From assembly GCA_015039465.1 (NCBI GenBank), contig MU130079.1, positions 88,150 to 152,149 on the forward strand: a stretch of 64,000 nt of DNA, read 5' to 3'. The notes under the pieces are model-generated. The model made no database searches and was not told the DNA's origin. It worked only from the letters and a program-made list of their open reading frames with translations. This stretch comes from Phlegmacium glaucopus. Taxonomy: Eukaryota; Basidiomycota; Agaricomycetes; Agaricales; Cortinariaceae. Numbering within the stretch: the first letter of the stretch is position 1; each line of letters starts with the position of its first letter. A program made the position numbers and the translations under genes. Below are positions 839 to 38,372 of the stretch, one piece after another.

Positions 839-968
839 AGGCCGCCATACGTCCTCCTCTTCATCTGAAGTTAACTTCTCTACTATGACACTTGCTCAGG
901 CCTTCTTTCTTGGAGGTGGAAGCTGCCATACGTCCTCCTCTTCATCCGAAGTCGCCTCTACTATGACA
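839..968. repeat. Two-copy direct repeat about 80 bp apart
   Basis: The motif GCCATACGTCCTCCTCTTCA appears twice, each time followed by a similar stretch ending in CTATGACA. On the minus strand both copies read as an acidic SDEEEDVW motif, so the repeat is probably part of the neighbouring coiled-coil gene remnant. Confidence 0.6.
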
Positions 969-4124: not shown

Positions 4125-4563
4125 GGCCCCCTTGACCTTAAATTTCTGCATGGTGCAATTCAAAGATTTGCAATATTCATTTATCTTTCCAGAGTTGGCT
4201 CTGCTAAACATCACATGAATAAATTTATTCCTTGATATGTAGTCTTGAATGAATGAGTAGATATTTTTGAAAGTGCTGTTCCAAGGTTAGTAGATTGAAT
4301 GATAGGAAGTACTATGATTGTTGATTGTACTGTGTCAAGTCCGCAAGAATCTCTCGCATCTCTGCAGATAGCCATTCAGTTGAACTATTGCCTATAATTG
4401 GTAAGATCAGTGCTAGGGCTATGAGTCAAGTGGTGGGTGCCATGGTTTTTGCAGAGGCATACCTGGGTAGTTTGCAAGATGAGCAAAGCCATAGAAGCAG
4501 CCTCTTTCAACTCTGAAAAAGGAGCAAGTGTCGCAGCCTCTATGACCAGAGGTAAGACCAGAG
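4125..4563. other. Non-coding spacer
   Basis: Sequence between element E and the solo LTR. No convincing gene or repeat was seen. Confidence 0.4.
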
Positions 4564-4568
4564 CTGAG

Positions 4569-4980
4569 TGTTAGGGGACACCCGACTTTAACCCAAACCT
4601 CAACTTTAGAATCATACACCCCGCCTTTCCGACGACCTCTGACCTTCTGTCCAACTCCGCTTCCGTCACTGGTTGACTCCGGAACCCCATAGTTCTGCTC
4701 CAACTCCAATCCTCTGATTCACTCCATCTTTTATTTCTATTTTTCATATCGCACCATTTCTTATTTAATTAATTAATTATTATTGTATCATTGCTTTATT
4801 TATTTTATATCTCTGTTATGTCCATATTAGTACTTAAACACCCCCAGCCTAGCAGGGATCCCCATCCTTTCCTCTTTGGATCCCCTGCTAGGTAAGTCAC
4901 TTGTAGATATATTTTCTGATCTATTATTAACTTTGGATCCCCTGTTAGTTGACTAAGTCAGCATTGCAGTTGCCCTAACA
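4569..4980. mobile_element. Solo LTR, family T, copy 1 (412 bp)
   Basis: It begins TGTTAGGG and ends CCCTAACA, the TG...CA inverted ends of an LTR. It is flanked by a perfect 5-bp target duplication CTGAG (4564-4568 and 4981-4985). A second copy of exactly 412 bp in inverted orientation lies at 47873-48284 with its own duplication. No internal retrotransposon genes are present, so it is a solo LTR left by recombination. It contains palindromic blocks around GGATCCCCTGCTAGG and a TTAATTAATTAATTA stretch. Confidence 0.9.
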
Positions 4981-5460
4981 CTGAGCCATTCAGTGAAGCT
5001 TCTGTCCAGTCAGGACATTCATCATGCAAGGGGGCACCAGGATCAGAAAAAAATACCTGGTGTTGATTTTTTTGTTAAGGGCTTTCTGGCTGGACTAACT
5101 AACTAACATAAGCAAGTTATGTCTATATATGGTAATTTTACATAATTATTTAAATATTACAATTATTTCTAAATTTAGATGTATATGATCATCAATTCAG
5201 CCATCGAAAAAAAAAAATGCTGCTTGATCTACTACCATCACACAACCAAATTTTCCCACGCTTTCAATGTGCTGGAAAAGGTGGTCTCAAAGATATTGTG
5301 TAGCATCACAGTAGAGTAGAAGCATAATAAAGCAGATACATTCACGACTTACTCCACCATGAGGTACATAACAATGCCCCTCATGCCTTTGGGATCAAAC
5401 ACATGAGTCACCAGAGCCACCGCGGGCACCACAAGCAAGACATGCGATGACTTAACCAAA

Positions 5461-7244: not shown

Positions 7245-7250
7245 AAGAAA

Positions 7251-9135: not shown

Positions 9136-10016
9136 TGATAGGATCCATATAGCCTCTAGGTTCGTAAACTGGTTATTTTTTGCGATTTAACAACTTCACA
9201 GTATACGTGGATGCCTTGCGGGTACCAACTTTGTTTGCACTCTCATTCGTGGTTCTCACACATCCTTCGCACCTCGCACAACACGATATAGTCCTCGCAT
9301 GACCTTCGCACATCACTTCTACGACCTTCATAACTATCCAAAGCACCCTCGTTTCTCTTCACATTTCAGACTTCAACATATCTTCAGTTCTCTCAGTCAA
9401 TATTTGAACTTAATCATTTCATCCCTTCGCAACCACACTTTCGCACAGCCACTATCTAATCTCGCGGTCTTTCACGGCTCGCATACACATCCCTTTCACT
9501 AGTTTTATCATGGTCCGTGTTATTTTCAACTTACTTTCTTTTGACTTTCCATATATATTATTTTATCATCTCCTTCGAAACAGGAGGTCATTCAACTGAC
9601 CTCCTTACTCATCACTTTTATTTTTACTTTATCTCCTATTCCTTCATTACCAAACTACTGGGTTCATGTGACTTTGCATTAGCTCAATTTTTACATTACT
9701 GTTTCGCATATCCGCACCTGGTTAGTTTAGAACTCTTGTATTAAGTATCCATAGCAAGTAGGAGGCAAGGTGAACAAGAAATGGCCAGAGTTTTGATCCC
9801 ATAAACCTTGCAGCAACGTTCTAAAAACAATAGTCTCATTCTTTAAGCTACTTCGCGCACTGCGTTCTCGTTCGCGAACTTCGCTATCTTCGTGACCTAA
9901 TTCTTCTTGCATATTTCAATACTGCGAACTTCTCTTTGAATTCTATCGAGGAAAACTACATTAACCCCTCTGAACTATGTTACTACTTGTGGTCTGATCC
10001 CACCGCTAGTACATCA
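9136..10016 (-). mobile_element. LTR-like element S1, copy inside LINE-1 (881 bp)
   Basis: The ends are TGATAGGATCC and GTACATCA, that is TGAT...ATCA. It interrupts the LINE-1 reverse-transcriptase frame between codons that rejoin cleanly. The flanking 4-bp duplication is ACAT (9132-9135) and ACGT (10017-10020), one transition apart. The copy at 30361-31681 is 880 bp once its internal MITE is removed and has a perfect 4-bp duplication. TG...CA ends, a short target duplication and no coding capacity fit a solo LTR. The orientation given is relative to copies starting TGATGTACC and is arbitrary. Confidence 0.75.
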
Positions 10017-10127
10017 ACGTGGCTTCACTACTTTGTCTGGATGTGAAAAGCGCATTTCCAAGTACAGCTGTGGACGTACTAAGACACAAAATGAGGATGA
10101 ATGGAATTCCATTGGGACACGTGGAAC
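10017..10127 (+). pseudogene. LINE-1 reverse transcriptase, middle exon-like piece
   Basis: This 111-bp island between two insertions codes for ASLLCLDVKSAFPSTAVD, which is reverse-transcriptase motif A (LDVK.AFP; compare FLDVKGAFPSVNIDR in LINE-2 at 13970). It ends with MNGIPLGHVE. The same reading continues at 16411 with LGHVEWLERRLEGRR, because the last 16 bases are the target duplication made by LINE-2. Confidence 0.85.
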
Positions 10128-10256
10128 GCTTCTTGATCTAATACCACCACCATATCGAATTCTTCCCACAGTTTCACCACCATTGAACTTGGGGGCCAGT
10201 ATCCTAGACCATAGAACAGCGTAGCACTTCTGCCATACTACTCCCGAAATTACACT

Positions 10257-12164
10257 ATGTCGTACACCAATAATACACAACCTCAGACGAGGCAGAAAAG
10301 CGCCGCAGCTACAGCCAAAAAAACGAGAAGAGAGCTCGAAGATGCTGAAAGCTTCATTATGGACGTCCGTAATAAAGACCAAGCTCTAATGTTATTGCGT
10401 ACACAGAATATCTCGTTCCTGGTGAGCCTACCAACCTCATAGATCTTTCATTTGCCCTCTTGCAGTTCACTGGGGCAAAACTTGCTAAAACCCCAACTGA
10501 TATCATCAGAGCATTCGCGTTCATCATGACTGATACTGCTTCACATCACATAGCCGAACATCTAGTCACCTCGGTCAAAACACAACTGCTTGAGCAAATG
10601 GAACTTTACAATACTCAAGTGGAAACCATGAGAGACGCGGTAGAAAACGTGACTAGAGCCGCTAAAGATATCACCACATCTATAACGGATCTCAAGGACG
10701 ACTGTACAGACATTGCAGACAAAATCACTCAAGTCACACTAGAGCTTAGCGAAAAAACTACAGTCACTACAGTTACACCATCAGCAACAGTGTGGTCATA
10801 TGCGGAAATTGCGCAATCTCAACAGATCCCTAAAATACACCTTGCCGTCATCACACGTGGTCAGTCTAACAACCGACAAGTATTGATGCAAAAAGACTCT
10901 AGGTTCACAGACACGGCTTTGGACAAATTAACTGAGAAAGAACTAGTCGCCAAAGCCAACATGGCTCTCAAATTAATGGAGGACGACCTCATAGACAAAC
11001 CTACTGACATCAAATTTATTGGTGCAAAAAGAACGAGAAACAGCGATACTCTATACCAATTGTCAACAAAAGAAGCAGCGGACTGGATAAGACAACCCGC
11101 AATCCAAGTTCAATTTGAATCACACTACGATGGGACTTCTAACATTAAAAACCGGCTTTTCTACACCGTAGTGGAATTTGTCCCTACCACCTTCAAGCCG
11201 GGTCTAGCCTCCACTCACACAAAAATTGAAGACGACAGTGGCCTGATCCCTGGGTCCATTGCCTCTTCCAAATATATCAAGCCTATACAATTGCGCAGTG
11301 AAACTCAACGAGTCGCCCACGTCATTATAGGATTCAACAACAAACTTGCAGCCAATCACGCCATCGAACACGGACTTTTCATGGAAGGTAAGCGTGTCAT
11401 GGCACGGAAGCTTCTCCCAGAACCAAAATGCTGCCTGAAATGTCAAAAACTTGGTCACCTCACACCAGAGTGTAAAGCTACCACAGATACCTGCGACAGA
11501 TGTAGCGGTCAACATAGTATTAGGACCACCACCTGTCTTCTCAACGACACAGCAAGATTCACATGTGCTAACTGCCCAAGCGCATTAGCAAAGGGTCACG
11601 GCACAGCTGACAGGAATTGCCCTTTTTTCATTAAAGAAACCAAAAAGTTACACTCACCTATACCCAAAACTAAATACAGATTCTTCCCCACACAAACCAA
11701 AAACTTGGCGCTTACTCATCGAACAAGAAACCCCGGCGTTAGAGCTTGACCAGCCACGTCACACACACCCTAACCACAATACAACTCACAACAACCCTTA
11801 TAGCAGTCTACCTCTGTGTTGTCCAGCAGACACCATCCCCACATCACAGACCACCTTGTCCAACGACTGGCAACCTGTAAATCATCGGCGGGGCCAGCAA
11901 AACCCTAATATAGAACCGCTAGGCACCAAAAAAGACGCAGCAAATCCCAGATGGCCATCAAAGCCAGTACAACACACACTGCCAGGCATCTTCTCCCAAA
12001 TGCAACGCAATAAGGAAGCCAGAAATGGGCAGCCTGCCCCCCCGCTACCTACCGGCCTCACAACTATGTCATGGGCGGATATGGACCCAGACGATCAAGA
12101 CATCAGTCCTATCCCAGAATCGTCGCAGTTATCCTACGTCATGGATGCCATCAATGGAATTTGA
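10257..12164 (+). pseudogene. LINE-2 ORF1 (gag-like nucleic-acid-binding protein)
   Basis: ATG at 10257 starts MSYTNNTQPQTRQKS. A frame change near 10445 leads into the long frame to 11749, and another leads into 11856-12164. The protein has a helical N-terminal half and then three zinc knuckles near 11430-11630: CLKCQKLGHLTPEC (CX2CX4HX4C), CDRCSGQHSIRTTTC and a CANCP...HGTADRNC cluster. The C-terminal part is Pro/Gln-rich and ends in MDAINGI. The last codons overlap the ORF2 start (ATGGAATTTGA at 12154), suggesting coupled translation in the active ancestor. ORF1 proteins bind element RNA in the retrotransposition particle. Confidence 0.8.
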
Positions 12165-12900
12165 ACAACGCCCTTTCAGAATCCGGCAGCAGAACATTAA
12201 CAAATCGCTCATTAGTCAACTAGACCTTTTACACATGACTTATGCCTTATTCAGGAACCTTATATTGACTTCAACGGAATGTCTAGAGCCAACCCTCACT
12301 GGTCGGTAGTATACCCAACAAACACACAAAAAGCACCCTGACAGCACTCGCTCTCTAATACTAGTCAGCACAGAGCTCACGAACAACTCGTGGAAACAAA
12401 TACCAATCGACACCCCAGACATCACGGCCATAGAAATCAGCAGCCATTTTGGTATGCTTCACGTCTTTAATATTTATAACGACGTCAAGCACAACGATTC
12501 ACTATCACATCTATCTAATTATATGAGAGACGCAGGTCATCAACATTGTCTCAATCTACCTCTGGCGACGCTCTGGATGGGGGACTTCAATCGTCACCAC
12601 CCTATCTGGGACAAACCACGTAATGAGCACCTCTTCACAAGACACAACCTTGACTTGGCCCAGCCGCTTCTCAACATGCTGGGACGGCATCACATGAAAA
12701 TGGCTTTACCACCACTCATCCCAACTCTAAAAGCTCATGGCTCAGGCAATCTCACAAGGGTCAACAATGTATTCTGTTTGGAAGACATGCTTGACGGTAT
12801 CATCAAATGCAATACCGATGATGCTAACCGGCCCGTTAAAACCGACCATTTCCCTATTGTGACGGAGATGGATATCCAGACGCTCAAAGACGCTTGGAAG
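12154..12900 (+). pseudogene. LINE-2 ORF2, endonuclease domain
   Basis: The frame starts MEFEQRPFRIRQQNINKS, matching RQQNIN/WQQNIN at the same place in LINE-1. About 20 codons seem to be missing after LDLLHM compared with LINE-1. A shifted frame gives LIQEPYIDFNG and NPHWSVVYP, and the frame at 12454 gives MGDFNRHHPIWD and TDHFPI. These are the catalytic motifs of the APE-type nuclease that nicks target DNA. The deletion and at least two frameshifts break the domain. Confidence 0.8.
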
Positions 12901-14899
12901 CCCAGACGCAATTTCAGAGAAGTAGACTGGAAAGAACTAACCAAATCCTTACAGGTTCAACTTAATAATTTCCCTCCGCCAGCCAAAATCCCCTCTAAAC
13001 AGGCCTTCAATGAATCACTCAAAAGATTGAATGACGCAGTCCAACACGCCATAGAAGAAAATGTCAAGCTATCACACCCCAGCCCATACTCCAAACATTG
13101 GTGGAACAAAGATCTTGAAACAGCTAAGAAGACTACAAGACATCTAGGAGCCAAATCCAAACAGCATCGACTGAACCAACAACATCCAGTACATGAGGAA
13201 TATCGGAGGCAACATAACGACTACGCTGAAGAAATCAGGAAGGCTAAAATTGATCACTGGGCAGAGTGGCTAGAAGGCATGGACAAATTGAGCATTTGGA
13301 AGGCTAGCAGACTGGTCACTGGGCCAGCCACTGACGCAGCCAAATCTAGAGTACCTACTCTACAAGTAATCAATCCCATGACAAAGAGAGTCACGTGCAA
13401 AGCTATTGACAATGATAGCAAGGGTAAACTGCTTTATAAAATGTTCTTCCCGAAACCCAACCCACTAACACCTCCTATTCCATGTGATATCACATACCCT
13501 CCACCTAAATGGTCTTTCATCAATATCATGGACAAACAGATACATTGCACCATTAAGAAGCTGAAACCATTCAAAGCTACGAGAAAAGACACGACACCAA
13601 ATAGTGTGTTCATTAATGCTAGAGAAGTACTAGTCCCATACCTTGGTCCCCTGTTTTGAGCCACTCATACACTTAGGTATTACCCAAACGATTGGGCCGT
13701 TATGGACACACTGGTCATGAAAAAACCAGGCAAAACTGACTATACTGTGCCTTCAGCATGGCGTCCCATTGTCCTCTCTGACAGGATGGCCAGGCTGCTT
13801 AATGCCTGCCATACAGAAGATATCGTAACAATGTGCGAAAAACTAGATATTCTACCTTGCAATCACTTCAGCGCGTGCCCAGGGCGGACAACAACCAACT
13901 CTCTTCACCTCCTCACAAAGACTGTTAAAGATGCCTGGCGCAAAGGGCTTATGGCCTCAGCGCTCTTCTTGGATGTCAAAGGAGCTTTCCCAAGCGTCAA
14001 CATTGACAGACTTACCCACAATATGCATATGAAAGGTATACCAAAAGAATACACCTTTTGGATGAAACACAGACTTTCGAACTGCCAGACCTCCATCGTA
14101 TTCGACAACCACAGGACAGCCCTGTTTGCGGTTAACAATGGCCTCGATCAAGGCAATCCTTTCTCAGGAATCTGTTACCTCATTTATAACGCTGACATTC
14201 TTAACATTCCTAACCCCAAAACAGGCGAAACGATCCTTTTATATGTTGACGACGTGGCAGTCATAGTCATAGGAAAAGACTTTACCGAAACACACCAGAA
14301 ACTACGAGAAATCATGAATCACTCATAAGGCATTCTAGAATGGGCCAGACTTCACAATTGTGAATTCGGCATTGATAAATTCCAACTCCTCGACCTGACA
14401 AAACACTCAATCCCACACACTTTTATCCGCAACAAACGCTCACCCATACCTAGAAGCAACTTCATTCTCAGTCAACACCGTATTAAATCAGCAGAAACAG
14501 CAAGATTCCTAGGAGTATTGGTCAATAACAAACTCTCTTGGAAAGCACAAGGTGCAGCTAGCTGCACTTGCCAAAGGCCAAGATTGGCTCATCCAATTCC
14601 GCCGACTAATCTACAAATCCCACGGAATATCAGCTACAATATTACGCCAACTATACCTCGCCATCACAGTTCCTAGGATGCTATATGCAGCTGACATCTT
14701 CCTTACCCCACAACATAAAGTCGCCACAAGCGCGCGGGGCAAAGGCAACAACACAGCCAACATCACCAAACTTGCCAGAATTCAAAGACAGGCAGCTATC
14801 ATGATTACGGGCGCTATGCGAACTTCACCCTCTGATACGTTAGATGTGATGGCTAATCTCCTTCCTTTTCATCTTTTAGTAGACAAATTTTTATATTGA
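12454..14899 (+). pseudogene. LINE-2 ORF2, reverse transcriptase domain
   Basis: Motifs in order: KKPGKTDY...WRPIVLSDR (about 13720-13780), FLDVKGAFPSVNIDR (motif A, about 13970), NNGLDQGNPFS (motif B, about 14140) and LLYVDDVAVI (catalytic YVDD, about 14240), followed by FGIDKFQLLDL and the thumb region. The catalytic residues are intact. Stops at 13657-13659 (TGA), 14326-14328 (TAA) and 14897-14899 (TGA) sit where LINE-1 or the context expects Arg or another sense codon, and look like C-to-T changes. A small duplication (GCAGCTAGCTGCA) near 14550 shifts the frame. Confidence 0.88.
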
Positions 14900-14911
14900 G
14901 CCACTCTATGC

Positions 14912-16063
14912 ATGGCCACACTTCCCCCTAACCACGCATTATATAAACCAGTCAAGAATACAGCTCAACGCCTAGTCAAACGACACCCGGTGCCACTACA
15001 TATACTTTTTCATACTTATAACATCAAACCGTCACTTATCAAAAACATCAATACAGTCCGTCAAAACAACAAATGGTCACCAAACTTTACAACTAGGATT
15101 GCAGATACAAAGCAGGAAGCAATAGAAGAGGAGAGAGTGGACAAGGCAGACAGAAGAGTGTACTCAGATGGATCAGGGATGGATGGCAAAATAGGAGCCA
15201 GAGCAGTCTTATTTCAAGGGAGGAACGAAAAGAAAGCAGTCAATTATCTGCTAGGTACCAAGGAACATCACACAGTATATGAGGGAGAAGGCGTAGGAGT
15301 GATCATAGGAATGAGGCTGTTACTAAAGAAACGGAACATCAGGACCGCAACCATTGGGCTCGACAACCAGGCCATTATTAAAGCCATCAAACTGACTAAA
15401 CCGGCACCTGGTCACTACCTCGTTGACGAATTACACTTAGCAATCAACACCATCTGCAAACAACACAGAGGCATTCGACTCACGTTCAGATGGACGCCAG
15501 GTCACGAGGGCATAGAGGGGAACGAAAGGGCAGATGAGGAAGCAAAGAGAGCGATTACGGATGCAAACATTCAACCAGCCGACCTACCCAAATTGTTACA
15601 AAAGCAACTCCCATACAGCAAAGCAGCCTTATGGCAATCTTTTCATGTGAAATTGAAAGCACTGGCTCAGAAGGAATGGCTAGCATCACCGAGATACGAC
15701 TACTCCAAACACATCCTGCCTACAGCACCCACATCCAAATTCCTGTCGCTTACACGTACCCTTTCTCGCAAACACACGTCCATCCTTACTCAGCTCAGAA
15801 CTACGCACGCCCCACTCGCTGAACATTTACATCGGATTGGAAAAGTTAACTCCCCTCTGTGTCCCATATGTCTCCAGCACGATGAAACGGTCCTACACTT
15901 TCTATTACAATGCCCTGCGCATGCCCAACCATGCTCAGTGTTACTGGCCAAACTAGGGCCCACAGCTTGCAATGTCTCCAAGTTGCTCAATACTCCGACA
16001 GCACTGAAACCTCTTTTCCAGTACATCAGGTCAACGCAGAGATTCACTCAAATCCTGACGTAA
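14912..16063 (+). pseudogene. LINE-2 ORF2, RNase H domain and C-terminal zinc cluster
   Basis: This is a 383-codon open stretch continuing the polyprotein. RNase H residues are visible: YSDGSGMDGKIG (first Asp), YEGEGVG (Glu), GLDNQAIIKAI (second Asp) and TPGHEGIEGNERADE (His/Asp box). The C-terminus has CPICLQHDETVLHFLLQC, a Cys/His cluster typical of this LINE group. RNase H would remove element RNA from the hybrid. The domain itself is unbroken, but upstream stops separate it from the reverse transcriptase. Confidence 0.9.
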
Positions 16064-22080: not shown

Positions 22081-22722
22081 GAGAGGATTCATGAAAAGCA
22101 AACAAAAAAAAATTTACACTTCAACCAAACCATGCAGACCAACTATGTTGGGGTTTCATCTCTATCTTCTAACTCATAGGATAGGGCTCACATTGCCCTC
22201 CATTGCAGATTTGTGAGCAGTTGAGGGTTCTTGGTGGTGATGCACATTGTCTATATTGATCATGGGATAGATGAGAGGGTCCAGTGAATTTCCGAAATTG
22301 ATGCCTAATTTGTCTTGTCAGATCATCCATAAGCAGCACATGATGAGAGGACATCTTTGCAGGACAGCAGCGACGGCAAAGGGTGATCCAACCTATATGA
22401 TATAACATTTCATTTTAAAGTAAATTATTTCATAAAAGAATTACAATTTAAGATTGTTGTTTTTATTTTGTTTTTGTGCTATATGTATTTCAACTTTGTC
22501 AAGTGATATCACATGGGTATCTTATATTCTTGTACTTTTACTTATTGGTAATGTACAAAATGTACAAAATGATGTTGTTTTTTTTTGCTATTAGCATGAA
22601 ATATTTTTCCGAAAGAACCTTGTGAGTACAATACATGAATGAAATATTTTATCAAGTGAATTCAAGCTTATTTCAGCTTTGATCAATTACTAGTATCAAA
22701 AAATTATTATTTATTCTGTATC
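22081..22722. other. Spacer downstream of the Helitron coding region
   Basis: AT-rich. A short minus frame (22169-22408) with CRRCCPAK is not convincing. The Helitron 3' terminus (CTRR after a hairpin) may lie here, for example near the CTAG at about 22690, but I could not confirm a hairpin. Confidence 0.35.
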
Positions 22723-22994
22723 TTATTCTTCTATATAAAAGGCTATAATTGCCTTGTATTGTCCATCATGTGTTTTTAATTGATCTAAATTTTCTACATC
22801 TACTAGAGATTGTTCTCTTTGACAATTTGAACAGGTCATTTGTCCATCATGGTACCAAATAATAAAATTTTCATCAACAAGTTTTGTAGTAAAATGATTT
22901 CCATTAGTGTATATAATTCCTTTTAATATATATTGTTTTGATGAATTTGAAACATTAAATATCAGATGGTTGTTTTTTTTGAAGATGTACACCA
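22723..22994 (-). pseudogene. Helitron C-terminus, end of a USP-like peptidase domain
   Basis: The frame from about 22994 reads MVYIFKKNNHLIFNVSN, then YILKGIIYTNGNHFTTKLVD, IIWYHDGQMTC and a stop at about 22725. Y-x-L-x-G-I-I-Y and GNHFTT resemble the histidine box of ubiquitin-specific proteases, and WYHDG the following W/D motif. It is the direct continuation of the domain found in reversed form at 22995-24543. The upstream residues MDSYYYQMDLL...IPP read in this frame from 23085 are an artefact of the reversed segment. Confidence 0.65.
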
Positions 22995-24543
22995 TTATAG
23001 GGGGGATTGTAAGTTTTCTGAGAAACCCTAAGGTCGGGTGTAAGTTCACTTGTAAAAGGTCCATTTGATAGTAATACGAATCCATACGGATAATACTATT
23101 CTTTGTTACTACGTTGTCTTGAAACGTAATGATTTCCAGTTCTTCGAATACAACATCCTACCCTGTGATATGTCCCGGGTGTCCCTGTTTTACATAATCT
23201 TTGTAATATAAATCTTGACCTTTTAGGTGGTTTTGGCCATGTTAACGGTGTAAATGGACTTTTACATTAAGGTTACTGGTTCTGTAGATTTTGTTATTTT
23301 ACGTCAGACGGGTTACTGACACTTTATTTATATGAGTCTGTCGTTCATTTATAAAATGGTTTAAAAAGATACTGTCTGATACGTAGGGTTCCGTTTTGAG
23401 TATGGGTATTACAACAATTAGAATCAGTAACATTTTTTAAAGTTAACCAGATATGTACAGATAGTGTTTCAAGTTCACGTCGTCCTTGAGAGTAATAACC
23501 CTCTAAATTAAGGTGGTTTTAAGGTGTTCCTAATAGACCTGTAAATGCAGTTCTTAAGTCTCTTAATTTGGAAGACTTACTATAGTGTTACTTTCAAATA
23601 CTCCCGGTATATTTATTTAGTATGAACCCTGGTAATGTATTGGGTTACTATATATTTATAGTTTGACTTACATTTTAATTTTTTCTCTGATTACTAAACG
23701 TGGTATCAAGCTTTACCCGACTTTCACTTTCAAAATAAATTTTTTTCCTTCTTCTACCATGTACCTTAGAGTTAGAAATATTTTTGGAATAAGTAAGACG
23801 TAGATTGTTCTTTTTATTGTTTAATTTAGTTTTTGAAGGTTAAAGTGTATGTGATCTATATCTATATTCAAATCTTTTTAGTTGTTTTTTTTACTCTAAT
23901 AGAGGTAATGAAGGATTGTTACATACATGAGTTAGTGGTAATCCGGAATGGAACCTGTCGGAACTGATATCAACACGTATACTAAGTAACGAATGTCACG
24001 AAGTGGTATATACCTTACTTCCAGTCAACTTTGTATTTCGTATGAAACTTTTACCTTGTGTTATAGATGTTGACGAGGTAAGTTTAAAAGAAAACAATAG
24101 AAGGTTAGTTACATGTAAACTTTGTTAGACACTATTTAATTCTTATTATAACTTAGCATGGATAGGAAATGTTATAGTTAAACCTTTTTTAATATGACTA
24201 TATCTACTTAATTAGTCTCTTTAATGGAGTTTCTTTAGTATACCTTGTAGTTTAAACGTTACAAATTTTACATTAAACTGTTAGTTATTTCTTATAAGTA
24301 TAAAAGTTCTAATGTGGTGACAACCAACCACAAGACGTCTGATACTTTTTAATGTCGTATGTAGTAGATAGGTTGTTATGAACTTAAAATTTTAATTGTT
24401 TTGTTTTGTTTTTTGATTGTTTTTTACGGGTTTTACAAAATCTAGGTTCTTTTTTCTTAAAGGTGAGATATTATGAGTTAATTAATTATTTGATGGAAGT
24501 GAAAACTATAAAAGAGATCGAGGAACCTAACTATAGTTATTAA
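22995..24543. other. String-reversed segment: helicase end plus USP-like domain
   Basis: Neither strand has an open frame here. Reading the simple complement left to right, without reversing, gives about 516 codons with one stop (at 23739-23741). The motifs are those expected at this point of a Helitron. Helicase end: FPGKLSLCLGMPIMIRNND, ATELCITKGQEAYVVGWD, MTDYASQGKTHTHNVV and SGHLRQEFREL. USP-like part: LDYSCAYDSLL (candidate catalytic Cys), two CxxC pairs (LQCLKC, KCPKC) and LPSLLIFSLAPW. The segment equals the reversed, uncomplemented + strand. The left edge is between about 22,985 and 23,005; the right edge is the N gap. This is most likely an assembly error. Confidence 0.9.
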
Positions 24544-25459
24544 NNNNNNNNNNNNNNNNNNNNNNNNNNNNNNNNNNNNNNNNNNNNNNNNNNNNNNNNN
24601 NNNNNNNNNNNNNNNNNNNNNNNNNNNNNNNNNNNNNNNNNNNNNNNNNNNNNNNNNNNNNNNNNNNNNNNNNNNNNNNNNNNNNNNNNNNNNNNNNNNN
24701 NNNNNNNNNNNNNNNNNNNNNNNNNNNNNNNNNNNNNNNNNNNNNNNNNNNNNNNNNNNNNNNNNNNNNNNNNNNNNNNNNNNNNNNNNNNNNNNNNNNN
24801 NNNNNNNNNNNNNNNNNNNNNNNNNNNNNNNNNNNNNNNNNNNNNNNNNNNNNNNNNNNNNNNNNNNNNNNNNNNNNNNNNNNNNNNNNNNNNNNNNNNN
24901 NNNNNNNNNNNNNNNNNNNNNNNNNNNNNNNNNNNNNNNNNNNNNNNNNNNNNNNNNNNNNNNNNNNNNNNNNNNNNNNNNNNNNNNNNNNNNNNNNNNN
25001 NNNNNNNNNNNNNNNNNNNNNNNNNNNNNNNNNNNNNNNNNNNNNNNNNNNNNNNNNNNNNNNNNNNNNNNNNNNNNNNNNNNNNNNNNNNNNNNNNNNN
25101 NNNNNNNNNNNNNNNNNNNNNNNNNNNNNNNNNNNNNNNNNNNNNNNNNNNNNNNNNNNNNNNNNNNNNNNNNNNNNNNNNNNNNNNNNNNNNNNNNNNN
25201 NNNNNNNNNNNNNNNNNNNNNNNNNNNNNNNNNNNNNNNNNNNNNNNNNNNNNNNNNNNNNNNNNNNNNNNNNNNNNNNNNNNNNNNNNNNNNNNNNNNN
25301 NNNNNNNNNNNNNNNNNNNNNNNNNNNNNNNNNNNNNNNNNNNNNNNNNNNNNNNNNNNNNNNNNNNNNNNNNNNNNNNNNNNNNNNNNNNNNNNNNNNN
25401 NNNNNNNNNNNNNNNNNNNNNNNNNNNNNNNNNNNNNNNNNNNNNNNNNNNNNNNNNNN
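24544..25459. other. Assembly gap (916 N)
   Basis: A run of N. By gene order it should contain the N-terminal half of the Helitron helicase, including the nucleotide-binding motifs. Confidence 0.99.
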
Positions 25460-26712
25460 TTTTCAAAGTTTTCAGTGTAGATATAGTTGATGTGTAGTTA
25501 ATTTTTTTCACAGTGGATAAATTTTCTCAATATTGTTTTACAATACTTTTCCACTGAGCTCCAGTTTTGTGGACAGCTGGATGAAATTCACAAACATTTT
25601 GTTGTGATTTTGTATCTCCTGTTTGATCCAGCCAGCCAGCTTGGTTCATCATCATTTCCATCTCAATCATTTGTTGGGTTTTTTTAATGGTAATAGGACC
25701 TAAAATATTTTGATCACCATAATCTTCTTCAAAATTGGAATTTATTCCAAAATTGTCATTATAGTTTGCAATTGTGGATGATGTTTTTTCTCCACCCTCT
25801 ATATTTGATTGTTTTTTTAGTATTGCATGATAGTCATCCCTTTCATGTAGACACTCATAATGTGAATTAAAGTTGTTCATAATTTTTTTATTTTCAATAT
25901 TAAATTCATATAATGCAAATGCTTCAGTCCAAGTTTGATCTATATTTTTTAGATCTTGACTACTCCTCCATGGCTTGAAAAGAGTTAACATTGTTGAACA
26001 ATAATATCCTAAGTCTCCTTTATCACGTCAAGGTAGTGAACCACCAATAAAATTCAAGATATAAGTGTTTGATTGTGAAGGAATACATTTTACTTTGTGA
26101 GTATTTCTCTGAGTGTGACCTGGTAAAAATTGTAGGTATGTTGGGTCTTTAGTTTTCTGTTTAGCATTTACTTTTACTGATAATTTCGTCCAATCATACA
26201 ATGATAACTTCTTATAAGCTTCAGGGCGGTATTTATAATCATCTATCTTGGATGAAACTATATAATCTTTGCCATTTTGTGATATTAGCAATTTCTCATC
26301 ATTTGGATCATCATCAATATGCATAATATTTTCATCATCATCATCATCATTGGAGTTTTTATATTCACCTGTATATTTAATTTCTTCATTTGAATCATGT
26401 TGTTGAATGTGTATATTTTCATCACTATATATTTTTCACCACCTCCAATAAACAACTTTTGATGATCAATATCCATTTCATTATCATTGTTAGGAAACAT
26501 ACAACTATTATCTTTAGATGCATCTATGGTATTTGTATTTTTTGCATGTTCATCAATATCCATCTTTTCCTCACTGTGTGATAATGGTTTAATTTTATCT
26601 TGAAACAAATTATCTATATTTTCTTCAACAACAATTGATGTATTGTTATTGGAATCAGAGTTTCTAATATGATGAACAAATGACTTCCACCAAAATGGAA
26701 TGAATTTATGTG
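25460..26712 (-). pseudogene. Helitron middle region, from the DHYT block to the pre-helicase block
   Basis: The minus strand resumes at 26712 with YTSHKFIPFWWKSFV, the direct continuation of the frame broken at 35108. An acidic linker with MDIDEHAK and EMDIDHQ repeats follows, then YKYRPEAYKKLSLYDWTKL and FLPGHTQRNTHKVKC. After a stop near 26030 it continues with MLTLFKPWRSSQDLK, NSHYECLHERDD and a segment before the gap (MKKINYTSTISTLKTLK). The blocks PGH...TH and TLFKPWR correspond to the pre-helicase blocks in the fragment at 17158. A frameshift near 26330 and the stop make it a pseudogene. Confidence 0.7.
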
Positions 26713-27189: not shown

Positions 27190-28324
27190 ATATCTTTTCA
27201 CAGGCACCATTCCACATCCTGACCTACGTCGTGGACCTGGTGGTCGTTTTCTTAGTCGAGCCCTTAGCATTGATCCCCACTTTGATCCAGTGGCACCCGT
27301 TTCAGCTCCTATTCCCATTGAGAATTCCCAAGTACCATTATTCCCTGCAACAATTTTGCCTTCCGAGCCTGATATTTCATCTGTCCCTCTTTCCGTCATG
27401 TCCGACCCTGTTAACTCCCAGGCCCCCGAGCCTGCGACCTCCTCTATGGTTACTAGCCTCCCGGAATTTGGGGCTCCATCGGTAACCTCTGTAAATTTCT
27501 CCTTGGAGGCTTTCACATTGTTACTTCAGCGCTTAGGGTCCCCACCCACTCAGCCGAATGGGGCCATCCCAGTCACTCCCCCTACACTGTCTCTCAACCC
27601 CCCCCCTTTTCATTCCTCTGCATCTTCAGTAATCCCTATTGGTGAGTCTCTATATGACTTGTTTCCTCTTGTCGAGACAGGTACCATTCTGGAGATCACA
27701 AAGCACACTTTCAAACCCCTCGATCTTTTTAAGCTCGACCCAACATTACATGACAAAAACATGGACTTAAAGACGACTCTGGATCTTGAAAATGGCTCCA
27801 TTACAGCTAAAGCAAAGTCTGGTTCCCTCCGAGATTACCCTCAATTCACTTCCCTCCTCGAGCCCCTGATGGTGTATTTTAATATACTTTCCGCTTATGC
27901 TGCATCATCCGGTAATGTCGATGCTACATACGCCATTGCCCAGGGAACCTGCCTCTATGTGCAACACTTATCAACGCTAAACTGCTCCTACACTTGGCAT
28001 GCTGTCCTTCAGTACCATAAGGCCTTTTTCCTTCTCCGTTGCCGTGAAATGGCAAGAGGAGATTATTCCGGTTGGACGCGTTCAGATGGACAACTGATGA
28101 ACACCCATTTATACCATCAAATCTGTTCCTCTTCCTCTGGCTCTGTACGGACCAGTACTCGCCCGGCCCCTGCTTCGAAACAACTGCCAATTTCCCAGCA
28201 AACATGTTATTCCTTCAATAAGGGGTCATGCCCGAGTTCACCCTGCCCATCTGGTTGGATTCACAAATGCCAGAAATGCGATGATCCCAACCATGGTGCT
28301 CATGCCTGCACCAAATCCACTTAG
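27190..28324 (+). CDS. DIRS-like element, gag-like protein with Cys/His C-terminus
   Basis: The open frame runs from about 27200 (IPHPDLRRGPGGRFLSRAL) to a stop at 28324; the first ATG is not obvious and a CACAG 3' splice-like site lies just upstream. The N-terminal part is Pro/Ser-rich. The middle is a compact domain (KHTFKPLDLFKLDP, DYPQFTSLLEPLMVYFNIL, HAVLQYHKAFFLLRC). The C-terminus has a cysteine cluster (CYSFNKGSC...CPSGWIHKCQKC...HGAHAC). This is the layout of gag-like proteins next to tyrosine-recombinase retroelements, with the cluster probably binding nucleic acid. A TATA-like TAGTATATATAGC at about 27098 could be its promoter. Confidence 0.65.
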
Positions 28325-28336
28325 GTCTTTGGCAGA

Positions 28337-29536
28337 GTGAAACAGGTGTCCAGGTCCTCCACCTTTCACTCACGCCACCTAGATGAGCCTGCAATTTCTT
28401 TCCCTGGTCTACCCCAAAATTCCCTGTCCTTACCACACTCCGAACTTTTCCCCCCTTTTTCAATACCTCCTTCACAACCTAATACAGACCCTCGTTGCAA
28501 TCTGCCAGTCCTACATTCTCCAATTCCGCCCCGCGTTTTCACCCCCCTCATTTATAATGCCTGGGATTTCTATCTTTCTGACTATCCTGATAAAATTTTT
28601 GTATCAACTTTACTTCACATAATTCAATTTGGTGCATGCATTGGTTTTGAAGGACTGGAGGTCGTTCACCCTTGCAAGAACTTGAAGTCTGCTCTTGAAA
28701 ATTGCGAATTTATTGACTTGTCCATCAAGTCATTATTGTCGGATGGTCATATTCGGGGTCCATTTTTGACTCCTCCACTCCCTTCTTTACGATGCTCCCC
28801 GTTGGGTGTGGCTACTCGTAAATGTTCCTCCAAACTATGGGTGATCAATCACCTTTCCTGGCCAGAAGGGTCCTCTGTCAATGATGGCATCGCGGATTCC
28901 GAGGCTCTCATTTCTTATGACATGTTTGAACGAGCTATTGACGATCTCATAGCATCGGGGCCTGGTTCCCTGATGGCCAAACTGGATCTTAAAGATGCTT
29001 TTCATCACATCCCTATTAGGGAAGCGGATTGGCATCACATGGGGATCTCCTGGGAGGGAAAGCTCTATTTTTGTATTGTTCTAACTTTTGGGTTGCATTC
29101 GGCACCGTATATTTTTAATCTCTTTGCTGAGGCACTGCATTGGATAATACAGCGCCATATACCTGCCTGCCTTCGTCACTATCTTGACAATTTCTTATTA
29201 CTTTTCCACCCCTCTGATTCCTTATGCTATGGGACAGCTGCTGTGGAATGGGTTAAGGCTTTAGGTTGCAACCTTGGTCTGCAGTTTCAGGACTCCAAGA
29301 CGGTGTGGCCTGCAACCTGTGTCGAGTTTCTTGGCCTAGAATTGGATTCGGTAATGATGGAAGCTTGCCTTCCTGCCGATAAACTTTCTTACCTCAAGAA
29401 CCTCCTCTTTGTATGGTCTCGTAAACGGACAGCGGTTCTCTGGGAGGTGCAGGAACTAGTAGGTTTCTTGCAGTTTACCTCTCAGGTCATCCCCCGGTCT
29501 CGTTCCTTTTTCGCCGCCTCATTGATTTCTCAATGA
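28337..29536 (+). CDS. DIRS-like element, reverse transcriptase
   Basis: This is a 399-codon frame. It has SPLGVATRKCSSKLWVINHL, KLDLKDAFHHIPIREADWH (motif A), LTFGLHSAPYIFNLFAEAL (motif B) and HYLDNFLLLF (motif C). It then shows CVEFLGLELDS and a thumb region, ending near RSFFAASLISQ. The sequence style (LDLKDAFHHIPI, FGLHSAPYIFN) is that of the DIRS group. Motif C is YLDN (29180-29191) instead of YLDD, so the second catalytic Asp is lost and the enzyme is probably dead. It begins 12 bp after the gag stop in another frame. Confidence 0.85.
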   Translation: MKQVSRSSTFHSRHLDEPAISFPGLPQNSLSLPHSELFPPFSIPPSQPNTDPRCNLPVLHSPIPPRVFTPLIYNAWDFYLSDYPDKIFVSTLLHIIQFGACIGFEGLEVVHPCKNLKSALENCEFIDLSIKSLLSDGHIRGPFLTPPLPSLRCSPLGVATRKCSSKLWVINHLSWPEGSSVNDGIADSEALISYDMFERAIDDLIASGPGSLMAKLDLKDAFHHIPIREADWHHMGISWEGKLYFCIVLTFGLHSAPYIFNLFAEALHWIIQRHIPACLRHYLDNFLLLFHPSDSLCYGTAAVEWVKALGCNLGLQFQDSKTVWPATCVEFLGLELDSVMMEACLPADKLSYLKNLLFVWSRKRTAVLWEVQELVGFLQFTSQVIPRSRSFFAASLISQ

Positions 29537-30008
29537 AATTCAAATCTCCTTTCTCCCGTCTCTATATTCCATCCAGTGCCCATTACGATATCAACTGGTG
29601 GCAGCATTTCTGCAGCCCATGGAACGGGATTCGTCTTTTATGTTCTTCCGGACCATCATTTGATTTGTATACTGATGCCAGTGGCCGCAAGGGGCTGGGT
29701 GGAATTTTTAATTCCTTCTGGTTCTCTTCTTGGACCCCTCGCCGTTTTCAGGACTGGGACATCCAATTTAAGGAGATTTATGCAATTCTCCAAGCTATTC
29801 TCCGCTGGGGCGACCTTTGGCATGGACACCACATCAACATTCACTGTGACAATTAGGATGTGGTCGCCTGGTTGAATTCAGGAACCTGCCGTTCATCTCA
29901 TTCAATGCCAATCGTGCGCTTGATCTCCATGATGGCTGCCTGTCTCCAATTTTCCTTTTCTTGTGTTTGGATCCCATCTAAAGTGAACGTGCTCGCTGAC
30001 ACTGCTTC
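29533..30008 (+). pseudogene. DIRS-like element, RNase H domain
   Basis: It overlaps the reverse-transcriptase stop by a few bases. It reads INWWQHFCSPWNGIRLL, then FDLYTDASGRKGLGGIF (first Asp), FKEIYAILQAILRWG (Glu) and INIHCDN (Asp). A TAG stop at 29854-29856 falls right after CDN, where a Gln or similar codon is expected. The frame continues DVVAWLNSGTCRSSHSM, FSCVWIPSKVNVLADTASC and APWLL. No methylase domain was seen, so the order is RT, RNase H, recombinase. Confidence 0.75.
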
Positions 30009-30360
30009 TTGTTTTCAGTACAATCACCTCTTCCAGCTGGCCCCATGGTTGCTCAAGGCCTCCTTGCCTCCGAAATCCCACCTTACTGGTATGAGGCGCA
30101 CTCTCACCTCTCTCGACGGGTCGGCTTCTACTTATGGCATGGCCTCGCATCCAGCACTCGGAAAACATATTCTTCTGGTCAGCGCTCCTACATCAACTTC
30201 ATATGGGTTCGCCCCTCCCTCCTCATCCAGCCAGGCCAGTTCCTCCCAGCCACCCCTCAAGGAATACTCGAATGGGTCGCTTTCCTCGGCGACTGCAGGA
30301 TTATGCCCAAAACCATTAAATCCTACATCTCCAGCGTTCGTTCCTTACATGTCAATGCGG

Positions 30361-31681
30361 TGATGTACCTGCGGTGGGATCAGACCGCAAGTAGTATCGT
30401 AGTTCGGAGGGGTTAGTGTAGATTTCCTCGATAGAATTAAAGAGAAGTTCGCGGTATTGAAATACACTAGACGAGTAGACCGCGAAGATAGCGAAGTTTG
30501 CGAACGATAACGCAGTACACGAAGTAGCTTACACTGCTGGCACTGGGTGGTGTTTCCCTTAGAAAAACTTATTTTTAGAAATGTTTTGTCATTTCCAAAT
30601 AATTTCTCTCATGAAAACACAAAAAGTATTTCTGAAGGAAAAATTCTAAAAATACATCATGTGTTTCTCATGTGTTTCCCAAAGATAAATCTTATGTTTT
30701 TTAAAGGTTTTCCTTTCAGAAACAGTGGGGAAATACCTATTTCACCAATCACTAAGTGGAATAGGTGTTTCCCTGCTGTTTCTGAAAGGAAAACCTTTAA
30801 AAAACATAAAATTTATCTTTGGCAAACACACGAGAAACACCTGATGTATTTTTAGAATTTTTCCTTCAGAAATACTTTTTGTGTTTTCATGAGAAAAATT
30901 ATTTGGAAATGACAAAACATTTCTAAAAATAAGTTTTTCTAAGGGAAACACCACCCAGTGCCAGCAGTGTTAAAGGATGAGACTATTGACTTAGAACGTT
31001 GCTGCAAAGTTTATGGGATCAAAATTCTGGCCATCTCCTGTTCACTTTTTCTCCTACTTGCTACAGGTACTTAATACAAGGGCAACAAGCTAGCCAGGTG
31101 CGGATATGCAAAACAGTAATGTAAAAATTGAGCTAATGCGAAGTCACATGGGCCCAGTACTTTGGTAACAAAGAAATAGGGGATAGAATAACAATAGAAG
31201 TGATGAGTAAGGAGGTCAGTTGAATGACCTCCTGTTTCGAAGGAGATGATAAAATAATAATATATATAGAAAGTTAAAAGAAAGTAAGTTGAAAACAGCA
31301 CAGACCATGATCAAACCAGTGAAAGGGATGTGTATGAGAGCCGTGAAAGACCGTGAGATTAAAGAGAAGCTGTGTGAAGATGTGGTTGTGAAGGAAAGAA
31401 ATGGTTAAGTCCAGTATTGATTAGAGAAAGCTGAAGATACGTCGAAGTATGAAGTGTGAAGAGAACCAAGGGTGCATTGGATAGTTATGAAGGTCGTAGG
31501 AGTGATGTGCGAAGGTTATGCAGGGACTATATCATGTTGTGTGATGTGCAAAGGATGTGCGACAACCGCAAATGAGAGTGCGAGTGAAGTTGGTATCCGC
31601 GAGGCATCCGCGTATACTACGAAGTTGTTAAATCGCAAAAATAACCAGTTTACGAACCTAGAGGCTATATGGATCCTATCA
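30361..31681 (+). mobile_element. LTR-like element S1 inside the recombinase gene
   Basis: It begins TGATGTACCTGCGGTGGG and ends GGATCCTATCA, with a perfect 4-bp target duplication GCGG (30357-30360, 31682-31685). It is 880 bp long without the 438-bp MITE at 30532-30969 and its 3-bp duplication, against 881 bp for the copy at 9136-10016. TG...CA ends and no genes suggest a solo LTR of an otherwise unseen retrotransposon. Confidence 0.8.
30532..30969. mobile_element. Fully palindromic MITE (438 bp)
   Basis: The left arm starts CACTGCTGGCACTGGGTGGT and the right arm is its near-perfect reverse complement, ending CCAGCAGTG. The arms meet around 30745, so almost the whole element is one hairpin of about 205-bp arms. 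The target duplication is TTA (30529-30531, 30970-30972), and the uninterrupted site exists in the S1 copy at 9136-10016. TTA duplications fit PIF/Harbinger; CACTG ends would also fit CACTA-type elements. Frames on both strands code for the same peptide because of the symmetry and are not genes. Confidence 0.93.
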
Positions 31682-32619
31682 GCGGGCCTCCCTTTTGACC
31701 CATGCGAATCCCCCACAATCCAGCGAGTCATCAGAGGTATCAAATGTTACTATGGCGAGTGGCAGCGTAACCCAAAATTGCCTATCACCATCAACATCTT
31801 CCAAAAGCTTGCAGCTGTCCCAGGAGACCTCACAACAATCAGTGATGCCAATTTTAATGCATTTATAAAACTGGCCTGGGCAGGTTTTCTTCGCTGTGGC
31901 AAATTCACCCTTCCTAGTGGGGAAAAATTTGACCCCACAAGGCATCTTACTCGCTCTTCCATCAAATTTCTTCCTGGAATCATGGCTCCTACCCACATCC
32001 GCCTTGTTCTTCCTGCTTCTAAGACAGATCCATTTCGCAAGGGAGTCTCTATCCTCATTGCCCATGCCCCTGCGACCGCGGATTCTACATGTGCTGTCTC
32101 TGCCCTCCAGTACCTTTTCCAGTTGTCCCCACAACCCCTTTCATCACCTCTCTTTACAGACAGCGCAGGCGAACCCCTGTCTCAAAATTTTTTCATATTG
32201 CTTCTCAAATCTCGACTTGCAAAAATTGGTTTAGATTCATTGCTATATTCTGGTCACAGTTTCCGGCGAGGTGCGGCCTCCTCAGCTGCTGCTGTTGGCT
32301 ACTCCAACTATGAGATCCAGCTTTTAGGCCGCTGGCGTAGCGACGCCTATAAACTATACATTGATGTTCCCCCTGAACGCATCCTTCACCTCTCCTCTCA
32401 TCTCCATTTGGCCCTCGCACTAGTTCAGCCTCCTGAGCCTCTGTCTCTTCCCTTCACTAGTCTGTTGGCTTGAGCTCAACCCCTTTCCCATCTCACAACC
32501 AACAAATCTATTCTTTGATCCCAATAGTCACCGCACGATTAGTAAGATATATCCCTTTCCATTATTTCGGTTTTTCTTTTTCCATTTCTTCTCTTCCACC
32601 AAACCAAAACATAGATGAT

Positions 32620-34880: not shown

Positions 34881-35107
34881 TGGCTGGGGAAACATGCATC
34901 CAGACACAACAGTACAAATTTACAAAATTTGATTTATTGTAGCTGATTCACATTATATTTTTATGGATATACATCACTGAAAGTCCCCTCTGGGAGTGTT
35001 GTACAGAGAGGGAGCTCAGTGTCTCAGTTTCTGAGATGTGACATATGTGTGACACATGCCAAGCCAGATGTCACAGGTGACAGGCATTGCCCACCACCAG
35101 GTATAAT

Positions 35108-36092
35108 GATCAGGGTTTTGTAAAAGGTACATAGCTGCCATAGGACTTCCAATTTCCATTTTTGTTGATAAAGCATTGACAATCTTTGAAATTATTTTGT
35201 GTGCATCATCTGTTTGTGAAGGATCATCATGTTCTAATTTTGAATTTTTATCTAAAATATTATAAGCTGTTGAGAAGATTTGATGTGTTTTTAGAACAGG
35301 TTTACTGATATAATCAGTAACATATGAAATAACAGCTTTAATTGATGTCCCAGAAAGCATACTTGTAACATCTGTATTACATCTACAAAGATAAGTTATA
35401 CAAGGTGATATTGTATTTAGCATACTCTCTGTTTTTTTTTATATTAATATAACCATCCTCAGCATTCACTGTTGTTTCAGGTACAATAGGTCATGGGAAA
35501 TGTGCTTTACAAACACCATCTTTGTTCATACATCCCTTTGGTTTTAAGGGGGATTTATTTATATCATTAGAGTTACATTTGTGTACATTTGACCTTAATA
35601 AGATGTCATCAATTGTTTCTTCAAATTTTACCCACCAATTTCTTAATGGTTGGCATCCAATGCAATTTGTATGTTCCTTTGAATTACAAGGATCAGGGGG
35701 TTCTTCAGGCATAGTTTGTGTTGGATCTTGATATTGTGTTTGTGCCAATTGATTGTATTCTTCTTGGACAAGAGGTTGAATTCCTGTAAAATCACTTATA
35801 ATATTTGTGGGTATTTTGGATTTTACATATTCCATTGATCCTGTTAAAATTCACCTTTTTGACAACCCTCAAGGTATTGTATTAGGCTTTTTTGGAACTC
35901 ATTGTCTTTTTCCATGAGTTTGTCTTGAATTTCTTGTGGTGAAAGAGTGTTTTCAATCCATAACACTGTGTGTAAATGTAGTGTTAATTGTCCTTGCTGT
36001 TCCACCGCCCCATAATATCCAGCTGTATTACCATATAGTCCTGAATGATCAGTTCCAATTCCAAGGACATGCTTGATGAACATGGGGATCAT
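35108..36092 (-). pseudogene. Helitron Rep-like HUH region and downstream block
   Basis: The minus frame 36092-35844 reads FIKHVLGIGTDHSGLYG, then GYYGAVEQQGQLTLHLHTV; HLH fits a HUH nuclease motif. After a frameshift, 35835-35491 has HTNCIGCQ, SNVHKCN and KGCMNKDGVCKAHFP (zinc-binding). Then 35423-35108 has CRCNTDVTSMLSGTSIKAVI, YVTDYISKP, KIVNALSTKMEIGSPMAAMY and LLQNPDHYT, where the Mutator-like element cuts in. Rep nicks and joins DNA strands during rolling-circle transposition. At least two frameshifts are present. Confidence 0.8.
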
Positions 36093-37149
36093 TAGATCAA
36101 AAAATTGTGCTGCAGCTACAGGATTTTGTGCTACAAGTTGATTTCATTCATTTGCTGTTCTTAAATCAGGTTTAAATTCAATGTCTTTCTTTATCTGCAT
36201 AGTATAAAGATATTGGGTGTCAATTGTCAGCAGGTGATAATGTTATAAACCATGAGGGTGCACCCAGTTGTGATATCATGGACCATATCTCATTTCACAT
36301 ATATTTTTTACATGTTATTGAACCTTTTACAAATCCCCCTACATGATCCAAGTCCTTCAAAAGATCAAAACAAGCTTTTTCTTCAGTAGATTTAGAATTA
36401 AAATGTTCTCCAATTGAAAGCTTGTCACTGATGTTCTTTAATATGTCAATATTTAGGGATTTCAAGTGTTTAGATATTTCAGGCCATTTTTGTCTTTTAG
36501 CTAAAAGGAAACTACCTGTGACACCTGCTTTTAGCTGTTCATGATTAAATGCAATCATTGGAAAATAAAAGTAAGTTTGAAAGTGTTTATCATGATACAT
36601 AAGAAGATTGAGTTTATGAGTGGTCTCTGATATCATGCCAAAGTGACACTTTTGACCAATTCCTCCATAACCATATGGGAATAGCCAGGGAAACATTTGT
36701 GGATATGCCTGTGGATTATCATACATTGATTGGGGTTTGGAATCATGACTAATGCCTAATGTACATCCATTTTCAGCTAAATGTTGTAATGCTCTTGCTT
36801 TCAAGCTACTCAGAGACATATGTTCATATTCAGGACCAGTTAAACCATGTACTGTAAATGGACATGGTCCATTAGTTGTTCCTTCTTCAGCTTCATTATC
36901 ATAAACACTCATTGCAGTTGCTATTTTATTTCCACAATTTGGATCAGATATTGAATATTGAATTTCAACTGGGACTCCTGCTAGAGGATAACTATTAAGA
37001 TTTTCAAGAGAAATAGATAGATCTTTATAGTCAACATAATTTAATTTTAACCATTCCAATGCATTTTTTACATTATTTCTATGTACTAGCATTGGTGTGC
37101 ATTTAATGTCATCATCAGTGGGCTTGATAGGTCCTTGAAATACAAACAC
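36093..37149 (-). pseudogene. Helitron region upstream of Rep
   Basis: The minus frame 37149-36295 contains LKLNYVDYKDLSISLENL, LAGVPVEIQYS, KARALQHLAENG and the block YPQMFPWLFPYGYGGIGQ. That block is a hallmark of fungal and animal Helitron proteins as I know them. It continues through HDKHFQTYFYFPMIAFNHEQ to DLDHVGGFVKGSITCKKYM. Beyond the stop the next codons still read NEIWSMISQLGAPSWFITLS, the first Rep motif, with an in-frame TGA in the following ADN*HPI. The gene is dead here. Confidence 0.8.
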
Positions 37150-37260
37150 CAGAATTTCATTAATATCTTGTCAGCTGGGAGATAATGCATGATAAACTTT
37201 TACCATGGGGTTAGAAAACATTATTACATTGGCAATCATTTTTGCACGTCCTGATGAGAC

Positions 37261-38372
37261 TCAGACTAGACATCTGTTATGTTGAATCCTTGATATCAAC
37301 ATTTTTTCTGCAAATGTCAGGTCTTGTAATACCAATGGTACTGCACCTATACAGAAAGAATTAGCCAAAGATTGAGGTGGTTTTTTACCTTTTTTCAAAA
37401 AGGTTTGACAAGATTTGCATATATGTTGACAATTTTCAGCTAATATTGGACCTTTTAACAGTAAAATCGGGTCTGATGTGTGTAGTCTTTCATGTTGACC
37501 AATGTTACCAGGTGATAGAATATTTAAATCACAATCAATTTCAGTTAAAAGAAGCATATTGTTAAGAGGCACTAATTGACCACAAACAGTGCAGCCTCCT
37601 TCAACTAATTTGTTTGGTATAGTGTCTTTACAAAAGCCTTTAACAATTTTCTCAATTAAAGATGCTGAAGGGGGATCTGGAGGAAATTTTGATGATAAGA
37701 CAGATTTTAAAGTGCTGAAATCTTTGTCATTCTTGTGTTCAAGAGATGGTAAAACAGGTTTTGAAGTACTGAAATCTTTGTAACTTTTATGTTCAAGAGA
37801 TGGTAAAACAGGTTTTGAGGTACTGAAATCTTGGTCATTCTGATTCTTAAGATATATGGTCTTGACTTTAGGTTTAATTTCAGCAAGAACAGAGACATAT
37901 TCTTCACATTGATGACAGTGATGATCATAAAAATGTGATAACATTGTATTTTTTGTGATTTTTTTGGTATAGGTATGTTATGTATGACATTCAATTCTTG
38001 TAACTCAATAACATTCAAACAAAGTGATAGCTGTGCCAAGGGAATCTTGGAAAAAAATAAGGAAATATTGAGATCTGTTTGAATAACTGTTGTATTATCA
38101 GAATGTTTGTAACCCTTGAATTCAAATTGTTTATTTTTGCAATATTCAAGATCATATGTTACAGAAGTATTGGTATAGCCATGGAGATGTTTATAAACAA
38201 TATCACCATTAACTGAAGTTTGATGTCTCCTGCCAGTGCAAAAAAGGTTTTTAAAATTGTCTTGAGTATCAAGAAATTTATTCATACAGGAATATGTTGT
38301 TAGGTTGTTAGTTTTGTTTTTTGTCTTTTGAATGTATTTTTTTTGTCTGGAGACACCATAACTATATGACAA
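37261..38372 (-). pseudogene. Helitron N-terminal Cys-rich region with internal repeats
   Basis: The start MSYSYGVSRQKKYIQK at 38372 runs to about 37950 (LSLCLNVIELQELNVI). There an A-rich run shifts the frame to MLSHFYDHHCHQCEEY. Two and a half copies of KDFSTSKPVLPSLEHK follow (60-bp DNA repeats at 37700-37850). Next come GGCTVCGQLVPLNNM, HICKSCQTFLKKGKKPPQSL, ANSFCIGAVPLVLQ and LISRIQHNRC. The CxxC pairs and the ANSFCIGxVP...RIQHNRC block match, from memory, the DUF6570-like region of fungal Helitrons. Confidence 0.75.

Follow-up and report, generated by a model that had tools for sequence, protein, structure and literature searches.

Can a stretch of fungal DNA hold a coding sequence that opens only when its complement is read from left to right, and if so, does the peculiarity lie in the DNA or in the stored sequence? 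One locus in the genome assembly of Phlegmacium glaucopus (60.5 Mb, 259 contigs) raises this question. We analysed it in a window of 64,000 nucleotides, positions 88150-152149 of contig C45. A preliminary description held that 22995-24543 of this window had been string-reversed without complementing. Complement-only homology over the whole length and flanks in normal polarity bear this out for a slightly longer block, 22968-24543 (1576 bp; C45:111117-112692; no strand assigned), recognised by homology, open frame and dinucleotides.

Polarity and extent of the block in the window

As had been described, 22995-24543 has no ordinary reading frame: the longest open run in its six ordinary frames is 65 codons. 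Read from left to right, the complement shows a single stop in 516 codons and contains both of the motifs quoted beforehand, and the other 11 frames of the four readings (as given, reverse complement, complement and reverse) have 25-57 stops. Chance frames of up to 212 codons occur in uncomplemented readings elsewhere in the window, against 268 for the longest of the segment, and proof was therefore sought in homology and not in frame length.

With blastn, the complement of 22968-24543 matched a normal-polarity copy on C91 over its whole length (95.2%) and a copy on C214 in two pieces (97.6% and 97.5%) with extra C214 DNA between them. Further identities were 80.9% (C188), 80.6% (C72), 80.0% (C25) and 75.4% (C9). 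The sole match of the block as given was an equally reversed block on C65. A tblastn search with P0001, the protein of the C72 relative, gave E 4e-174 on the reversed string, as the preliminary description had anticipated; on the given string, with both strands searched, no hit was better than E 6.6. As a control, the whole window was complemented and compared with itself and 33 other loci, which gave 20 matches inside the segment and one outside it (59 bp, 80%). The dinucleotides of the block also differ from those of the rest of the window, with ratios of 7.75 versus 0.53 for CG/GC, 1.38 versus 0.74 for TA/AT and 0.52 versus 1.34 for CA/AC. No complement-only match of the block was found within the window at E <= 1e-5 that could serve as a mirror-repeat partner, and the block is not a mirror repeat of the H-DNA type.

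The letters of 22968-24543 run backwards without being complemented, i.e. the block is reverse(T), where T is the true sequence. Against the C214 locus L004 (blastn), the left flank rises to 463 and the block in complement reading falls from 2610 to 464, whereas the mapping of a collinear complement would rise. The base due after 22967 is therefore stored at 24543, and on the evidence of this order the relation of the block to T is reverse(T) and not complement(T). Collinearity with the normal copies returns, to the base, once the order of the block is undone in place. On the left, the break is resolved to the base (22967|22968, against 463|464 on C214); on the right, the block stops at a gap of 916 N (24544-25459), at which the preliminary description had correctly placed the segment. 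Its end coordinate thus stands, and its start was 27 bp late.

Both flanks have normal polarity. The left flank (22401-22967, minus strand) holds the coding end of the Helitron family and sequence past it, and is 94-97% identical by blastn to the copies on C214 (L004 and L009), C91 and C65, every alignment stopping exactly at 22967. To the right of the gap, 25460-26600 (minus strand) holds the upstream part of the Helitron protein, with an ORF at 25527-25991 on the minus strand; 25460-25870 is 97.6% identical to the C91 copy in ordinary polarity (blastn). The C91 copy has 1043 bp (L008 3023-4065) in place of the 916 N, so the patch is rightly placed and about the right length.

Helitron content and neighbourhood

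On its true coding strand, the minus strand, the block encodes the C-terminal portion of a protein of the Helitron helicase type, interrupted by one in-frame stop. Helitrons characteristically have 5'-TC and CTRR-3' termini and a 3' hairpin, and insert between A and T. A PIF1-type helicase domain, which marks Helitrons, was found in the C72 relative, where P0001 is an open frame of 888 residues with PIF1 (PF05970) at 181-405 (E 3e-30). The block aligns to residues 500-886 of P0001 with 72% identity. The Helitron helicase content claimed earlier is thus upheld through this relative, with the correction that the block covers the portion past the PIF1 core; its own two pieces gave no Pfam match at E <= 0.001. 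Helitron_like_N (PF14214) was found in a more distant element on C250, the helicase part of which is 38% identical. By its homology to a protein with a PIF1 domain the block resembles known Helitron transposons, and as far as found the element itself is ordinary; only its storage is faulty.

A Helitron N-terminal region lies in normal polarity at 35000-38372 (minus strand) and is 64-71% identical to the C250 copy. The only Pfam hit in the N-terminal ORFs of the window was DUF6570, which was found in two of them. It probably represents the 5' portion of the Helitron to which the block belongs, or of a sister element. About 9 kb separates the C-terminal part (22401-26600) from the N-terminal one, both on the same strand, and a reverse-transcriptase element occupies 27290-32473 on the plus strand between them (RVT_1 at 28337-29536, E 4.6e-12); the two parts are perhaps a single Helitron split by insertion.

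The window contains further repeats. A high-copy repeat with internal units of about 204 bp lies at 1931-4000 and 42750-44098, thus in both orientations within the window, and occurs at dozens of places in the genome. One or two degraded elements, LINE-like by the look of their ORFs, cover 5461-16063, with RVT_1 at 13702-14328 (E 2.7e-17). Large ORFs with glycine/histidine-rich repeats and DUF7932 (PF25560; E 4.9e-11) at 58354-62140 are likely a host gene.

Recurrence in the assembly

The preliminary description had suggested a scan of the assembly for uncomplemented reversals beside gaps. Our sample yielded 17 further reversed blocks, some of them touching no gap. Together with the window block, and counting only those that have complement-only alignments, this gives 18 homology-supported blocks spread over 15 contigs. 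Thirteen adjoin N gaps (8 on the left, 5 on the right), one reaches a contig end and four are gap-free in the sense that no gap is touched within the stretch examined. Gap or contig end thus coincides with 14 of the 18 blocks, in five of them by a composition model for the last stretch.

Left of gaps, the block at C65:16318-16943 lies in the same Helitron element as the window block and has a different endpoint: the sequence is normal to position 1500 of locus L002, reversed over 1501-2126 and then N, with a base-exact break at 16317|16318. C250:15210-15781 has 572 reversed bases and a break (15209|15210) collinear with C195 901|900. At C21:185220-187176 and C26:176396-179271 the stretch nearest the gap was assigned by the composition model. 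The block at C220:345112-345162, one base short of its gap, rests on a 51-bp alignment (E 6e-17) with a break at 345111|345112. C189:244470-245233 is collinear with a copy on C62 to about 4 bp, and C106:287370-287954 breaks at 287369|287370 against C62 2218|2217. Right of gaps, C21:187907-188417 breaks at window-equivalent 2029|2030 with 2 bp shared, C220:346848-348791 and C226:214147-216450 have their stretches nearest the gap from the composition model, and C45:7890-8503 and C203:241898-242233 are each collinear with C62 to about 4 bp. C45 opens with 7889 N (1-7889), and 7890-8503 are its first real bases.

The block reaching a contig end is C243:301957-304104, where the stretch nearest the end comes from the composition model. 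Those touching no gap are C128:310637-311739, C105:728840-731082, C237:846907-850144, with normal sequence starting 2 and 28 bp from its ends and no N, and C224:119306-121500, which runs to the end of the stretch examined. Identity to the C62 copy was 98.8-99.1% for C45:7890-8503 and the C189 and C203 blocks, and four blocks in all are 98.8-99.5% identical to a normal copy. In this C62 family the breaks lie near one position (L065 2114-2218) in all four blocks with a resolved break.

The 18 blocks are a sample found mostly by seeking reversed repeats, so 13 of 18 describes where reversed blocks lie and not the share of gap edges affected. Complement-only queries with other repeats led to three places in one case, all examined; in another, 30 matching pieces fell at 12 candidate places. 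Among the 10 contigs matched by this second query, places were examined on C21, C26, C243, C237 (one of two) and C128. The complement-only form of C45:7890-8503 had 40 matches (40 of 41 candidates scored); as given it had 12 candidate places on 12 contigs, itself included, and those on C45, C189, C106, C224 and C203 were examined. Both places from the as-given search with the window block were examined, and the C250 block was found by chance through a normal-polarity match.

On C45 itself we read 1-40000, 83035-86306 and 86650-152175, which hold four gaps and seven gap edges when 86307-86649 is counted as part of one gap. Two of the seven edges are reversed (7890-8503 and the window block) and five are normal, the call at 86027 resting on an indirect argument.

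The composition model, a fourth-order Markov detector of polarity, picks up the window block; its low scores are unreliable, with known false alarms, and it missed the 51-bp C220 block as well as the C250 block when 222 bp of the latter were in view. Window 1-627 (score 16.8) was rejected as a reversed candidate: of its 220 candidate matches as given, 40 were scored, and at least 39 lie at other places, against 10 for the complement only. Two mutually matching stretches, C250:18974-19298 (24.6) and C45:85800-86027 (13.4), were read, indirectly, as normal; their polarity is opposite to that of C51:65429-65771 (L066). When window 1-640 is searched complement-only, this last locus matches best (97% to 299-640), although most relatives of that stretch match as given; it is itself probably a further reversed block, outside the 18. 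Odd dinucleotides at 62-64 kb of the window were likewise dismissed, the relatives being in normal polarity. Scores of 27.5 and 19.1 were obtained for C45:34495-35308 and C9:318622-319445. C128:307177-308574, right of a gap, scored 72.8 without homology support and is outside the 18. At the right edge of the C65 gap, 379 bp (C65 24557-24935; L039 6158-6536) matched in neither polarity among the loci compared; they have an internal inverted repeat and a reversal-like composition in the first 300 bp.

Origin and consequences of the reversed blocks

The same error occurs at many other places in the genome and is therefore a data-handling fault and not biology; it is systematic and no biological feature. 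We are close to certain that the blocks are an artefact of assembly software, namely repeat patches from gap filling or end extension with the strand operation half done. Contigs would have broken at repeats, and a later gap-filling or end-extension step would have written repeat-derived patches into the gaps. For part of them, an opposite-strand patch would have been complemented with its order left unreversed, or a patch already correct would have been reversed, leaving reverse(T) in place beside the remainder of a gap or across a closed one. Both routes give the same product and are indistinguishable here. The polarity, the collinear breaks (several of them base-exact), the gap adjacency and the recurrence on both sides of gaps were observed directly; gap filling as the step, and the half-done strand operation, are what we infer. 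Gap adjacency, collinear breaks and the 17 further blocks thus support the gap-filling or scaffolding error first suggested for the window.

Reversed blocks occur on either side of gaps while several repeat edges are normal, which agrees with a fault that hits some patches and spares others. The four blocks on C128, C105, C237 and C224 that touch no gap, and the five normal edges on C45, count against this account, as does the reliance on the composition model, with its false alarms, for the last stretch of five blocks (C21 left, C26, C220 right, C226 and C243). The C237 block, with its close normal flanks, looks as a wholly closed gap would be expected to look, and breaks near one position in the C62 family are expected if contigs stop at a repeat edge.

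Our analysis rests on a single genome copy, and the reversal might have arisen after deposition, solely in that copy. This is unlikely, since nothing would make a later file operation stop at gaps or at one repeat position (L065 2114-2218).

A biological process, such as 3'-to-5' polymerisation or parallel-strand copying, could in principle have written reversed, uncomplemented DNA. The blocks are many and situated in repeats, and such polymerisation by an 'invertase' has been proposed along with swinger DNA (PMC4942731; title cited in PMC7027195). However, a process of this kind would not respect N gaps, where 13 of the 18 blocks end, one more ending at a contig end, and the blocks occupy the sites of normal sequence in normal copies, four of them at 98.8-99.5% identity. 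Swinger DNA resembles the blocks in that known sequence is matched only after an uncomplementary transformation. However, its A<->T+C<->G rule, as set out in the relevant part of PMC4942731, gives complement(T) in collinear order, whereas the blocks are reverse(T) in place and, by their mapping, would not qualify as a collinear complement.

Known polymerases and repair also use antiparallel strands, and a biological origin is very unlikely. The version in which parallel-strand or 3'-to-5' copying in transposons put the blocks into the living genome, where hard read joining then broke the assembly, is scarcely credible. An ordinary inversion, or the inverted insertion of another Helitron copy, has practically no probability: inversions are frequent in transposon-rich DNA, but the reverse complement that they leave, as the preliminary description had argued, would show in blastn, and the given block was refuted as one both there, where it matched only the reversed C65 block, and in tblastn. 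The preliminary description had taken polarity to rule out all biology, which stands for inversion and is softened here to the grade given above for other biological origins.

The artefact reading remains to be set beside known assembly faults. Gap-filling errors and local misassemblies in drafts are alike in their N gaps, contig ends, repeats and systematic occurrence, but the usual errors known are wrong repeats, collapses and true inversions (reverse complement), whereas here strand polarity itself is broken. Among the papers listed by narrowly worded searches of the open-licence literature, none described an assembly error of this kind.

An identical string operation is used to make null-model genomes. 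In the parts of these papers that concern it, a reversed human genome was compared with a protein set and 19 spurious matches were counted (PMC9004415), and score thresholds were set with a reversed tomato assembly (PMC4981986). There it is deliberate, covers the whole genome and estimates false matches, whereas the blocks here are unintended, local and within the assembly. The practice presupposes that sequence of this kind finds no matches, and where an assembly carries the fault, a reversed genome is weaker as an empty null. Where uncomplementary ('swinger') DNA is reported from databases, such blocks are also a plain alternative to test.

Complement-only homology search, with skewed dinucleotide ratios such as CG/GC as an aid, is a simple way to scan for the fault; it allows this assembly to be flagged and further products of the same pipeline to be checked. 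Ordinary homology search is blind to reversed blocks, and annotation, masking and mapping should treat them as unknown, apparently lineage-specific DNA. In this way they would hide transposons and genes, disrupt reading frames next to gaps and inflate the genome with false 'orphan' sequence.
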